A DNA stretch of 21,859 bases from a virus. A model generated the notes under the pieces. It worked only from the letters and a program-made list of their open reading frames with translations, did not search any database and was not told where the DNA came from. This document shows, in pieces, positions 5,045 through 9,568 of this stretch. The first letter of the stretch is position 1. Each line of letters opens with the position of its first letter. The translations under genes and the position numbers were made by a program. Location: positions 1 through 21,859 of IMG/VR virus record IMGVR_UViG_3300048835_000780; one strand, 5' to 3'.

Positions 5045-7780
5045 TTAAAAAGGGATATCGTCGTCGGCCGGCACGTAATTCGGCTCGTTCAGCGGCGTAT
5101 CGGCCATGGGCAGTTCCGCCAGGTCTGCAGGATCGGGCTTCTCGCCCAGTTCGCACTTGACGATCCGGTCGTACTTCTCGCCGGTGACGCTGCGGACGGT
5201 GATCGACAGCGCCTCAGCCAGCGCCCCGGCGTTCGCCAGGGCGACGGCGTCGTCGACGTTCTCCGGCACCGGCAGGCGCGAGCGCAGCTTCCACCAGGCC
5301 TCGGCCTTGCCCCTGGCGTAACCCGTGTGCTCGAAGCAGACCCACTCGCTACGGTGGTCATTGAAGCCGATGCGGTAATCCACCCGCATGGTTCGCGGGT
5401 GATCCTCGGGGGCGTCGCGCTTCACGTGGACGCTGTAGCCGACCTCACTGACGGCGTGCTGCGTCTCGGTGATCTCCCTGGAGAGGATGCCGGCCGTGGA
5501 CGCTTCCTGTTCATGCTGGCCGCGATTGGGGGGTGGGAACTCATAACCGCACTCGGGGCAGAGGGTGTAGGCGGCGTGGATCACCGCCTGGCACTGCGGA
5601 CATTCCTTGGCGGGCGCTTCACCCGAGCCTGTGGCTCGATCCTTGATCTCCAAGGCGTCGACGGGGCCATGCCGCAGGATATTGCCCCCGAAGTCCAAAA
5701 TCAGGCAGTCGGTCTTGCCCGGATGCAGCCGGAATCCTCGACCCACCATCTGGTAGTAGAGTCCCGGCGAGTTCGTCGGCCGCAACAACGCCACGCAGTC
5801 GATGTTGGGGGCGTCGAAGCCGGTCGTCAGCACGTTGACGTTGACCAGGTACTTGAGCTGCCCATCCTTGAACTTTTTCAAGAACTCCGCCCGCTCGAAC
5901 GGCAGCGTGTCGCCGCAGACAAAGCCGCATTCGTGGCCCATCTCCCCCAGCACCTTCTGCACGTGCAGGGCGTGCTGGACGCCGGCGGCGAAGATCAACA
6001 CTGAGTGCCGGTCGGCGGTCTGGTCGACGATCTCGCGGCAGGCCGAGCGCACCAGAGAGTCATCATCCATCAACGTCTCGACCTCGCCCGCGATGAACTC
6101 GCCGCCCCGAATGTGCAAGGTGGATGTGTCCACCTTGCGCTTCCCCGCCTTGCTTTTGAGGGGACAGAGATACCCCTGCACGATCAATTCGCGCACACCG
6201 ACTTCGTAGCAGATGTGGTTGAGCAGGTTCTCCGGGCCGCAGATCAGACCCGTGCTCATCCGGTACGGCGTGGCGGTCAGACCGACCAGGCGGATGTTGG
6301 GATTGACCACGCGGGCGTCGTCCAGAAACGTGCGGTACATCCCCTCGCCGTCCGGCGGGAGCATGTGCGCTTCGTCGATCAGGATCAGATCGAATCGGTC
6401 CAGTTCGGCGGCACGGCGGTAGACGCTCTGAATCCCCGCCACGATGATCGGGTGTTCGGTGTCGCGGCTCTTTAAACCCGCTGAATAGACCCCGATGCGG
6501 TTCCACAGGTCCGGAGCCATCGCGTGGAGCTTGTCGGCGGCCTGCTCGATCAGTTCCTTCACATGCGCCAGGATCAACACCCGCCCATCCCATTGCTGGA
6601 CGGCGTCACGGCAGATCGTCGCCATCACCGGGGTTTTGCCGCTGTTGTGATGAACGATGAAATGGCCGTCCAGGTAGAGATGGTCTGCGTCAAGGAGAAA
6701 GCCGTAGTAGCGCCCACGGCCGGCGGGCTCTACGCTGAAGCCCGTGCGCAGGACGGATTTCTTCTGCAGCCGCGCTGCCGGCCGGCGACGAGGAAGACGA
6801 CACGGAACTTCGCTGAAATCGCCCCAGATCGACAGGCGAAAATACCAGCCGCCGGCCCCGCTCTGGCAAGAGCAGTACTTTCGAGTGCAATGGGCGGCGA
6901 ATCCGAGACTACGCGCAAGGAACATGATGTCCGTCGCCAGTTCTCGGGACTGGGTGATGTGATCCACCCCGCTCTTGTTGGCGCAGCCATCGCTGTCCAG
7001 CAGGCCGGCCAAGAGCAACATTCGCTCTTGCCGCGTCGCGGTCAAATAGGTGTGCGGGATGAACTTGCTCGCCGCATTCCGGCCGGCCAACTCCAAAGAT
7101 GCCAGCGCTTCCGTAAGAATGCCGTATTTCCCCTCCTCCTTGACGATGCGATAGGAGGGGCAGCGACCACCCGAGGCATGGATGGTTACGCCACAGTTGA
7201 TGCCGTGGGCGTACTCAATCCAGGCGTCAGCAATCTCCTCGTCAGCGGTTGTCAATTGGATCGTGTCGTCGCTAAGGCAGCCGTCTCCAAGAAGCAGGCC
7301 AAAGATGTATGGAGGGATGGGAAGATTTGGGCGTGTCGTGAACTCGACCGCGACGCGACGGAGTTTTCGCAGGTGCCGCCAGGATTTCGGTTTCGTCAGG
7401 TAATCCTTGACGGCGATGTTGTCGATCTCGCCGCCACGCCGATAGCACGCGAACTCCCGTTTGCCCTCATTGGTACAGACCAGCGAAAGCACATGGCCCG
7501 CGTTGACGACGAACGGCTCGCCGCGGTGCGGCGTAACCCGGAACATGTCGTCCTCGCCCCGAAACAACTGTAGAACGCGGCGGGGTTGGCTGTCCGGTCC
7601 CATGAGCACATCACCGACAGTCACGTCCTCAACAGGCTTGACCGTACCGTCAAACATGAGGATGGGATGCCCTGCCGCATGGCACGCGGTAGGCAGGACC
7701 ACGCAGGGGTGATCGTCCCGCGCCCGCAGGTGGGCGTAGACAGCGGCGATGGCCTCGGATTGGTATGGCCGAAGCTGCAT
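5045..7780 (-). CDS. Superfamily 2 DEAH helicase interrupted by an intein in the P-loop
   Basis: A 911-residue precursor that should splice to a 564-aa phage-type helicase. The extein starts MQLRPYQSEAI (Q-motif-like), reaches VVLPTA at residue 32, is broken by an intein (33-379), and resumes with SGKTPVMA, so the Walker A motif is rebuilt only after splicing. Further motifs: DEAH 469-472, TATP near 502-505, TGFDAPN near 653-659, QMVGRGFR 678-685. A zinc ribbon follows (C728, C731, C741, C744), then a C-terminal domain ending DDDIPF, an acidic tail like those that contact SSB-type proteins. Start ATG at 7780 has an ideal GGAGGAG site 5 bases away. It probably unwinds or remodels DNA during replication or recombination. 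Without splicing, ATP binding should fail. Confidence 0.93.
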   Translation of the reverse strand: MQLRPYQSEAIAAVYAHLRARDDHPCVVLPTACHAAGHPILMFDGTVKPVEDVTVGDVLMGPDSQPRRVLQLFRGEDDMFRVTPHRGEPFVVNAGHVLSLVCTNEGKREFACYRRGGEIDNIAVKDYLTKPKSWRHLRKLRRVAVEFTTRPNLPIPPYIFGLLLGDGCLSDDTIQLTTADEEIADAWIEYAHGINCGVTIHASGGRCPSYRIVKEEGKYGILTEALASLELAGRNAASKFIPHTYLTATRQERMLLLAGLLDSDGCANKSGVDHITQSRELATDIMFLARSLGFAAHCTRKYCSCQSGAGGWYFRLSIWGDFSEVPCRLPRRRPAARLQKKSVLRTGFSVEPAGRGRYYGFLLDADHLYLDGHFIVHHNSGKTPVMATICRDAVQQWDGRVLILAHVKELIEQAADKLHAMAPDLWNRIGVYSAGLKSRDTEHPIIVAGIQSVYRRAAELDRFDLILIDEAHMLPPDGEGMYRTFLDDARVVNPNIRLVGLTATPYRMSTGLICGPENLLNHICYEVGVRELIVQGYLCPLKSKAGKRKVDTSTLHIRGGEFIAGEVETLMDDDSLVRSACREIVDQTADRHSVLIFAAGVQHALHVQKVLGEMGHECGFVCGDTLPFERAEFLKKFKDGQLKYLVNVNVLTTGFDAPNIDCVALLRPTNSPGLYYQMVGRGFRLHPGKTDCLILDFGGNILRHGPVDALEIKDRATGSGEAPAKECPQCQAVIHAAYTLCPECGYEFPPPNRGQHEQEASTAGILSREITETQHAVSEVGYSVHVKRDAPEDHPRTMRVDYRIGFNDHRSEWVCFEHTGYARGKAEAWWKLRSRLPVPENVDDAVALANAGALAEALSITVRSVTGEKYDRIVKCELGEKPDPADLAELPMADTPLNEPNYVPADDDIPF
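6644..7684 (-). other. Intein with LAGLIDADG homing endonuclease domain (347 aa)
   Basis: Inserted between Ala32 and Ser380 of the helicase precursor, exactly inside PT-A/SGKT. Block A is CHAAGHPILM with Cys1. Block B is GEPFVVNAGHVLSL near 55-68, with His64. The two LAGLIDADG-type helices are FGLLLGDGCL (128-137) and LLAGLLDSDGC (224-234), both keeping the acidic residue, so the endonuclease may be active. The end is YYGFLLDADHLYLDGHFIVHHN, carrying block F and block G with penultimate His346, Asn347 and Ser as the +1 residue (in pieces: GFLLDADHLYL, then FIVHHN). All residues of a class 1 splicing intein are present. The stretch is less GC-rich than the flanking extein DNA, consistent with separate acquisition. 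Cys at several middle sites (268-274) may bind metal. Confidence 0.93.
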
Positions 7781-7782
7781 GG

Positions 7783-8595
7783 CTACTCCTCCAGCCTCGA
7801 ACCTTCCGAAACTGCGACTTCCGGCGCGGCCACCTTTGCGAGCAGCCGTCCGCTTCGCCTGCAGTCCACGCATTCGCGGCCTACGCCGAGGCGGCTATGC
7901 CGGCTTCGGTTGAACGCAGCGAATGGTTTGATTTGCCCGCAGTAGGAGCAGACCTGGGAATCCACGTCCGAATCTTGGCTAACGCCCAAGACCAGCCGAG
8001 GGTTGTCCTTCACGATTTCCCAATCGAGGCGACGAATCGCAAACCAACGATCATCGACGCCAATCGCCTCCTTAATTGCATCACAGACCAGATCCAGAAC
8101 ATTGACCGCGTCGCCCTTGTGGTTCGGCTTTTGAACGAGAACGTCTAACCACACCTTGTTGTTAACGACCCGAATTCCTCTCAGCGCATGCCTCAGTGCG
8201 GAGATGATGCCGCTGCGAATGGCTCTCGCTTCGCGTCGCAGTGCGACATGACCGGTGCGGCGCATCGTATAGATATGGTTTTTTGATGCGGCGTAGCTGA
8301 AAGGAACGTCGGCAGTCACCTTCCACAGCAGCGTCGGGGTGTCTGCTTCGCGCCACACCGTACCCCGAGCCACGGTACGGCTTGCTTGCGATCCCGCCTC
8401 TTTGGCGCGCTCCTTGCGAGCCCGACTACGTTTGATGTTGCGCACCCGTTGCGATTCAGTCGGCGGATGCCGTCTGGCCCACAGCTTCTTTCGGCGCAGG
8501 TCGCGCACATCCGAACATGGCCAACAGTACTTCTGTACCGGCCCGGTACGCAGCGACAGGCCACCGCAATCTTCGCAGAGGATCAGTTGTGACAT
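7783..8595 (-). CDS. RusA-like endonuclease domain flanked by two zinc fingers
   Basis: A 270-aa protein with three visible parts. Residues 7-27 hold a CxxC...CxxC finger (C7, C10, C24, C27), followed by a very basic stretch (30-70). Residues 90-205 look like the RusA resolvase fold: KGDAVNVLDLVCDAIKEA from 160 and GVDDRWF at 179-185 match the order of RusA acidic residues (D162, D172, D181, D182), although the usual second Asp of the DxDN motif is Val. A second finger follows (C216, C219, C242, C245). Start ATG at 8595 overlaps the end of the truncated rusA by 13 bases. The region is clearly less GC-rich than its neighbours. It may replace the lost RusA, or be an endonuclease-type selfish gene; the nuclease call is from motif pattern only. 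Confidence 0.7.
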   Translation of the reverse strand: MSQLILCEDCGGLSLRTGPVQKYCWPCSDVRDLRRKKLWARRHPPTESQRVRNIKRSRARKERAKEAGSQASRTVARGTVWREADTPTLLWKVTADVPFSYAASKNHIYTMRRTGHVALRREARAIRSGIISALRHALRGIRVVNNKVWLDVLVQKPNHKGDAVNVLDLVCDAIKEAIGVDDRWFAIRRLDWEIVKDNPRLVLGVSQDSDVDSQVCSYCGQIKPFAAFNRSRHSRLGVGRECVDCRRSGRLLAKVAAPEVAVSEGSRLEE

Positions 8596-8822
8596 GCGTC
8601 GTACTCCATTTCAGCCAGGTCTCGACGACGCCGATCGGGCGGAAAGGCGTCCATCATGAGCGCGATCCGCCCGCCGCACGGGGGCTTGCGCGGGCCGTTG
8701 ACCCCGGCCAGAAGGGCGCAGACGTTCGCGCGGAACGTCCGGCCCTCCCGGCTGATCACGGTGCGGCCTCGCAAGTGCCGCCAGTAATGGTTGATCGATG
8801 GCGGGTATGGCAGCGTGATCAC
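8583..8822 (-). CDS. rusA: Truncated RusA-like Holliday junction resolvase (N-terminal half)
   Basis: RusA cuts Holliday junctions in phage and prophage DNA. This 79-aa product opens with the family signature LPYPPSINHYWRHLRGR and runs through PPDRRRRDL at 61-69, where RusA normally continues with an Asp-Asn pair, a helix and the DD motif (about 50 more residues). Here it changes to AEMEYDACHN and stops, so the catalytic acidic cluster is missing and the protein should be inactive alone. The truncation falls at the start of the zinc-finger RusA-like gene. I prefer GTG at 8822, which overlaps the upstream stop as GTGA and follows GGAGG by 7 bases; GTG at 8825 is also possible. A dimerisation role is conceivable but unsupported. 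Confidence 0.8.
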   Translation of the reverse strand: MITLPYPPSINHYWRHLRGRTVISREGRTFRANVCALLAGVNGPRKPPCGGRIALMMDAFPPDRRRRDLAEMEYDACHN

Positions 8823-9100: not shown

Positions 9101-9568
9101 TCAGCGCTTCCACGGTGGGGTGTTGCTGGCCACCGGGGCCTGCTGGGGCTGGCCACCTCCGGAGAGGTTTGCGGCCTTGGGTTCGTACCCCTTGATCTCG
9201 TTGGTGAGCTCGCCGGTGTCCTCACGCTTCTTGAGCTTCACGGTGATCACCAGCGGCAGATTGTGCAGCTCGACGCTGTCGCGCGGCTGCATGACCCCCA
9301 CGGCGTGACAGATGGCCGAGAGTTCCGACATGGCGATCTTCACCGCCGTGGCGTTGGGGTTGTTGAGGTTCAGCCGTGCCCAGACAACCCGGTTCCTGTA
9401 CTCGCCGTCCAGGATCGTGAAGGTGAGTTGCAGGTAGCTGCCGCCGCCGTTCTTGGTCGGCTTCATCTCGCTTTCGGTGATGGCGGCGAGATACTTGCCC
9501 GCCGGGATCGGCTCGAAACTGCCGGTTGGTTCGACTTCGGTTGCGTTGAATCCATTCAGGTTCGCCAT
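9101..9568 (-). CDS. DUF669 phage protein, probable ssDNA-binding partner
   Basis: A 155-aa protein of the DUF669 type: MANLNGFNA start, PIPAGKYLAAITESEMKPTK near 20-39, then a beta-rich middle (YLQLTFTILDGEYRNRVVWA) that reads like an OB-like fold, and a Gly/Gln/Pro tail ending SNTPPWKR. The family usually sits beside a Sak4 or RecT-like gene and is thought to act as a single-strand DNA-binding partner; here the Sak4-like ATPase ends 2 bases before this gene's start. Start ATG at 9568 is preceded by AAGGAG at 8 bases. The 54-base gap after it (9047-9100) holds only the ribosome site of the next gene. Confidence 0.88.
   Translation of the reverse strand: MANLNGFNATEVEPTGSFEPIPAGKYLAAITESEMKPTKNGGGSYLQLTFTILDGEYRNRVVWARLNLNNPNATAVKIAMSELSAICHAVGVMQPRDSVELHNLPLVITVKLKKREDTGELTNEIKGYEPKAANLSGGGQPQQAPVASNTPPWKR

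Follow-up and report, generated by a model that had tools for sequence, protein, structure and literature searches.

At this locus a resolvase gene breaks off at its active-site codons and a second gene overlaps what is left of it; the question is what the second gene encodes and how it came to lie there. RusA is a DNA-junction-cutting enzyme (a Holliday junction resolvase), and the original prediction saw in this arrangement either a variant that had replaced the resolvase or a selfish, endonuclease-type gene that had landed in rusA. Here we analyse the 21,859-nt virus record IMGVR_UViG_3300048835_000780 (positions 1 to 21,859; the whole stretch is referred to as the window), in which all features with coordinates given for the window lie on the minus strand. 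We consider it fairly probable that an active, zinc-fingered RusA variant displaces rusA and spreads as an allele by homologous recombination.

The rusA stub and the overlapping gene

The 5′ stub of rusA (8583–8822) starts with GTG and encodes 79 residues, 10 of which are foreign. Homology to RusA spans 8616–8822 and ends at RRRRDL (codon end at 8616): stub residues 2–69 match PHROG 34 (RusA-like Holliday junction resolvase) with E = 4e-20, and the Pfam RusA model is matched over its first half only (profile positions 1–63 of 124; E = 0.0013). The unrelated residues AEMEYDACHN follow, and then a stop. The gene is thus normal up to RRRRDL and cut at its active-site codons, as originally read. 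In the intact relative L027, whose RusA is 83% identical to the stub at the protein level, the same codons continue as RRRRDLDNLQKPALDALEHAGIYEDDSQ. Comparison with this relative, which carries a full rusA beside the same helicase, places the breakpoint at CTGG (8615), where DNA identity stops and L027 has CTGGACAACCTAC. The same DNA comparison delimits the junction and leader, from the rusA break to the start of the next gene (8596–8615); the leader is comparable in L005 and L137. No right-hand remnant of rusA is recognisable in the window. The dN/dS ratio of the stub is 0.10 (window versus L027), a low value that fits a recent cut and would also fit retained function.

The next gene (7783–8595) encodes 270 residues and overlaps the stub directly, by 13 bases. 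Its lower GC content, already noticed at the outset, amounts to 59.5% versus 69.4% in the stub; its GC3 is 65.9, and that of neighbouring phage genes is 81–87. Directly downstream lies a DNA helicase (5045–7780; ResIII 2e-19, Helicase_C 2e-15, PHROG 16), and upstream a DUF669 single-stranded DNA-binding protein (9101–9568; PF05037, 2.5e-20; PHROG 6015, ssDNA-binding). The helicase itself contains a Hint/LAGLIDADG intein at its Walker A motif (6644–7684; GC3 73), which is absent from L027, L032 and L037 and constitutes a second mobile element adjoining the rusA break.

Predicted fold, zinc fingers and putative active site

An AlphaFold2 model of the 270-residue protein, built with ten relatives, has a mean pLDDT of 83.4. 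In a Foldseek search with this model, the seven best PDB matches were all seven RusA chains (Escherichia coli; E values 6.2e-7 to 5e-4; TM scores 0.71–0.75 by target length). The model of L022, a family member that is 39% identical, has a pLDDT of 88 and returned the same seven chains on top (E values 2e-6 to 2e-4). A RusA fold is therefore predicted for two distant members, and the suspicion of a RusA-like protein stands: the models point to a complete RusA fold of its own, with the core at about residues 86–207 (7975–8340; Foldseek match to 1q8r and 2h8c). At the sequence level the likeness is faint. The Pfam RusA model aligns with residues 156–203 of the window protein at E = 0.051 and 14.6 bits, against a gathering cut-off of 22.8 that other members do pass (L009/L010, 28.8 bits; L016/L017, 24.5; L153, 25.2). 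The profile–profile match to RusA (hhalign) is weak (E = 0.01, probability 4%), and a search of the PDB by sequence with the family profile retrieved no RusA, the link being visible by fold comparison only.

The core is flanked by two putative zinc fingers, each with a pair of CxxC motifs that would bind zinc. The N-terminal finger (C7, C10, C24 and C27; 8515–8577) is at least 90% conserved among 24 aligned members, and the C-terminal one (C216, C219, C242 and C245; 7861–7950) is invariant in them. The latter is of the type found in phage endonuclease VII and HNH proteins, and PHROG 1035 matches 22 of the 24 members; these endonuclease VII/HNH matches are limited to the finger (about residues 207–249), whereas the nuclease core is RusA-like.

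Between the fingers lies the RusA-like acidic pattern of the original prediction (D162, N165, D168, D172, D181 and D182), which together with K175 forms the putative active site (8050–8112). Among the 24 members D162, N165, D172, D181 and D182 never vary, and conservation of D168 and K175 is at least 90%; counted across 24–26 members, the catalytic-type acids are invariant. In the alignment to RusA, the equivalents of D70, N73, D80, D90 and D91 are kept, those of the catalytic Asp70 and Asp91 being the invariant D162 and D181/D182. By contrast, RusA D72 is replaced by V164 and K76 by D168, and the protein does not have the Ser72 plus Glu79 variant either. D72 and K76 both belong to the four canonical catalytic residues of RusA, so that resolvase activity cannot be taken for granted. 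(One of the titles that PMC3485210 cites describes RusA K76 as catalytic.) Because the other five equivalents are kept, however, the active site is remodelled rather than lost; D168 and K175 may compensate for the missing Asp72 and Lys76, and the remodelled site may well work, in which case the protein would act as a nuclease on DNA junctions.

The replacement of two canonical residues would also suit an inactive, DNA-binding RusA relative, or moron-type cargo, that happens to lie in a hotspot of rearrangement; the interval from rusA to the helicase does hold variable genes in relatives. Invariant acids and purifying selection speak against this (dN/dS of the new gene is 0.16–0.31 where computable), and in the slot described below the gene and an intact rusA never occur side by side, a pattern that neutral cargo would not explain. 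We regard this alternative as improbable.

About 35 distinct family members were found in scans of viral contigs and GTDB genomes; they occur in phages and on contigs binned as Planctomycetota, Acidobacteriota and Alphaproteobacteria. When the window and L022 proteins were compared by tblastn with 50,697 phage records, and the window protein with 72,556 plasmid records, no match was returned; no Pfam, PHROGs or NCBIfam model spans the whole protein. The family is an unannotated branch of RusA with a moved active site. In the Geobacillus phage phiOH2, a relative of the L022 and L161 phages, gene 35 adjoins rusA; it was considered as a member and found not to be one. Two members are possibly decaying copies or assembly errors, one with an in-frame stop (L145, 14–772) and one with a frameshift (L142, 1165–1942). 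Three further ORFs stood out on family contigs: a DNA methyltransferase ORF containing a LAGLIDADG-like stretch (AAMVDGEGSIYIH) just upstream of a member that does not have the N-terminal finger (L011, 1711–3741); an HNH/AP2-like endonuclease ORF close upstream of a member (L016, 2820–3326); and a Sak4-like ATPase whose Walker A motif is immediately followed by an intein-like Hint/LAGLIDADG insert (L143, 495–2285).

State of rusA in related slots

In the window's nearest relatives, an intact rusA occupies the slot that separates the DUF669 protein from the helicase. The closest of these by helicase is L027 (88% identical; DUF669 protein, 90%), in which rusA, with no new gene, is followed directly by the helicase. 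L003/L004, L005, L006 and L137 have a rusA stub truncated no more than a few codons from DLD. In L003/L004, L005, L137 and L138 the new ORF closes with the terminal codons of rusA itself (CCGGAGAACAACTGA and close variants). This tail (PEDN, ENN or ESN followed by the stop) occurs at the ends of five rusA genes and five new genes and at none of the other 458 ORF ends among the 468 compared. The new gene therefore lies inside rusA, as had been proposed, and is flanked by both rusA ends in L003/L004, L005 and L137; it occupies the place of rusA residues from about 73 to some 5–7 codons before the stop. With about 35 family members and the same cut in L003/L004, L005, L006 and L137, the arrangement is not a matter of chance.

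Elsewhere, shorter stubs precede the new gene in L021 (PHROG 140 RusA, E = 7e-5) and L023 (PHROG 34 RusA, E = 6e-4), a weaker one precedes it in L153 (E = 0.025), and a full-length rusA does so in L015, L022 and L024. L022 differs from L161 by a clean insertion of 1,260 bases immediately behind the rusA stop. This insertion also contains a second ORF (2268–2609; MNQLTIFDFVDDEQT...) and a short ORF, so the new gene may travel with companions there. A break at KPDVDN between L022 and phiOH2 was examined as a cut at the same codons and rejected, being a difference between two native rusA alleles. At least 12 members lie away from rusA.

To learn how the slot looks otherwise, we drew records by their upstream DUF669 protein, blind to rusA and to the new gene. 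As the 80 records drawn are the window's closest matches in DUF669 and may exclude its own record, they give no measure of the frequency of the new gene. Of 79 informative slots, 76 held a full rusA and 3 neither gene. None held a stub alone; a short form of RusA conserved on its own did not turn up in this sample. Intact rusA is missing from all 15 slot contexts that contain the new gene and from 3 of 79 without it (Fisher's exact test, P = 9e-15), which supports the proposal that the resolvase was replaced. Across 23 family contigs no second full rusA was seen except for the tandem neighbours, although, the contigs being fragmentary, one located elsewhere may have escaped notice.

L022 and L024 adjoin an apparently intact rusA, and takeover is thus not universal. 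The tandem rusA of L015, directly upstream of the new gene, is probably dead, because among 178 distinct RusA motifs (159 with D72 and no E79, 18 with S72 and E79) it is the only one with S72 and no E79. More generally, RusA positions 72 and 79 covary (L015, L022, L024, L160–L251 and others), and a catalytic acid seems to have shifted along the helix. The S72 of tandem rusA genes was also considered as a form of resistance to cleavage; this idea was dropped, as the S72 and E79 pair occurs in relatives without the new gene.

Where the new gene is present, the stub decays: it is garbled in L005 and absent from L138, which keeps the rusA tail in the slot. Nine further slot contexts with the new gene contain no stub (L007, L012–L014, L018, L139 and L141–L143). 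These cases bear on the idea of a split RusA, in which the 79-residue stub and the 270-residue protein would act jointly, for example as an unequal dimer. The two ORFs overlap and are probably translationally coupled, and the stub is still RusA-like in the window, L003/L004, L006 and L137, as joint action would have it. The garbled stub of L005, the large protein occurring alone in the nine contexts above and in L138, and the predicted completeness of its RusA fold make a joint enzyme very improbable.

Mutual exclusion and stub decay fit a resolvase displaced by one that makes it dispensable. In such a displacement the 270-residue protein would be a working, metal-dependent endonuclease with a RusA fold and two added zinc fingers, and branched DNA would be its substrate. 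Its gene would have entered rusA with removal of the catalytic half, the protein would have taken over the resolvase function, and the 79-residue upstream ORF would be what remains of rusA, no longer needed for any function. Homologous recombination through shared flanks would then swap the two alleles, rusA and its inserted form, between phages.

Transfer of the gene and comparison with known systems

The helicase tree pairs the window with L027 as sisters (support 99), L027 having an intact rusA. In this tree the state of the slot, new gene or rusA, switches at least 8 times, with 6 of the switches forced by well-supported branches. Truncated stubs formed one clade in 0 of 200 bootstrap trees, and 3–5 state changes are needed; a single clade gave P = 0.07 in the AU test, the stub sequences being short. 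A block common to L003 and L004 shows one mismatch in about 1,018 nt; it takes in the final 55 nt of the stub and the new gene and extends about 100 nt further. To its left the stub diverges by about 16% (dN/dS 0.16). Since a near-identical block abuts a diverged stub, the flanks of the recipient rusA appear to have been kept on transfer. The block was considered as a homing tract and rejected as such, because other L003/L004 blocks are equally similar.

Repeated transfer into different rusA backgrounds is predicted by homing and by phage homologous recombination alike. Under homing, a RusA-fold endonuclease would cut insert-free rusA near its DLDN codons, and repair would copy in the gene together with rusA flanks; the protein may also do RusA's work and thereby make up for the harm done. 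This accounts for a gene inserted at the active-site codons and, in relatives, bordered on both sides by rusA sequence, for the L003/L004 block beside its diverged stub, for the stubs that never group as one clade, and for the association with rusA across several RusA families, including the clean insertion in L022 relative to L161. A zinc finger common to phage HNH and endonuclease VII proteins also agrees with it, and F-CphI, with its Holliday-junction-resolvase motif, is a precedent (PMC6083498). Against homing, the catalytic half of the target is deleted rather than split and retained, cut points vary outside the DLD group, the L003/L004 tract is not unique, the AU result is not decisive, and homologous recombination accounts for the transfers without any cleavage. 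A mobile intron or intein leaves both halves of its target in place. Of the reading made at the outset, the RusA fold, the landing in rusA and the replacement of the resolvase held up; homing itself is the less likely part, as no locus retains both target halves and at least 12 members lie away from rusA. Because of the deleted catalytic half and the members far from rusA, we hold homing to be unlikely, while leaving it a real minority share. The combined scenario, in which a RusA-fold homing nuclease cuts the active-site codons of rusA, inserts itself and then serves as the phage's resolvase, is likewise doubtful. A rival resolvase displacing rusA is likelier, and a selfish DNA cutter targeting rusA less so. 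Remnants at both ends of the old gene would then record one junction-resolving enzyme displacing another inside the same gene, and they make it testable whether a DNA-repair resolvase fold can become a selfish, self-inserting nuclease.

Known selfish nucleases resemble the system in part. F-CphI is a DHHRN homing endonuclease with a motif that goes back to the resolvase endonuclease VII, and its cleavage has been shown experimentally (PMC6083498), so a phage resolvase-type nuclease can serve as a homing endonuclease; it differs from the 270-residue protein in having the endonuclease VII (beta-beta-alpha metal) fold and not that of RusA. The free-standing (intronless) homing endonucleases SegF, SegG and MobE of T4 are well known beside their targets (PMC2988022). 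Like the new gene, theirs lie beside or in the target region and spread with co-converted flanks, but they have GIY-YIG or HNH folds and are intergenic, so that the target gene stays intact and no catalytic half is lost. Our literature search returned neither a homing endonuclease of RusA type nor a comparable RusA with zinc fingers; as far as searched, a resolvase fold turned selfish is known for endonuclease VII and was not found for RusA.

Among resolvases, G44P of SPP1 is a RusA-like enzyme of 27.5 kDa that cuts Holliday junctions and replicated D-loops and partly complements the loss of RecU, according to the part of PMC3485210 that describes it. Both it and the 270-residue protein are enlarged phage RusA-family proteins with extra sequence outside the RusA region. 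As that part of the source describes G44P, its RusA-like region is C-terminal, no zinc-finger pair is reported and no insertion in another rusA is mentioned. A close likeness is to the RusA resolvases themselves (PF05866, PHROG 34/140/1682; PDB 1q8r, 2h8c and 2h8e), whose fold is the one predicted for about 120 residues of the protein and which have the same phage recombination-gene context and genome slot. They do not have the two zinc fingers, being about 120 rather than 270 residues long, and they differ at the equivalents of D72 and K76 (V and D in the window member, which falls below the Pfam cut-off). The 270-residue protein is thus an undescribed, distantly related RusA-type enzyme with two zinc fingers.
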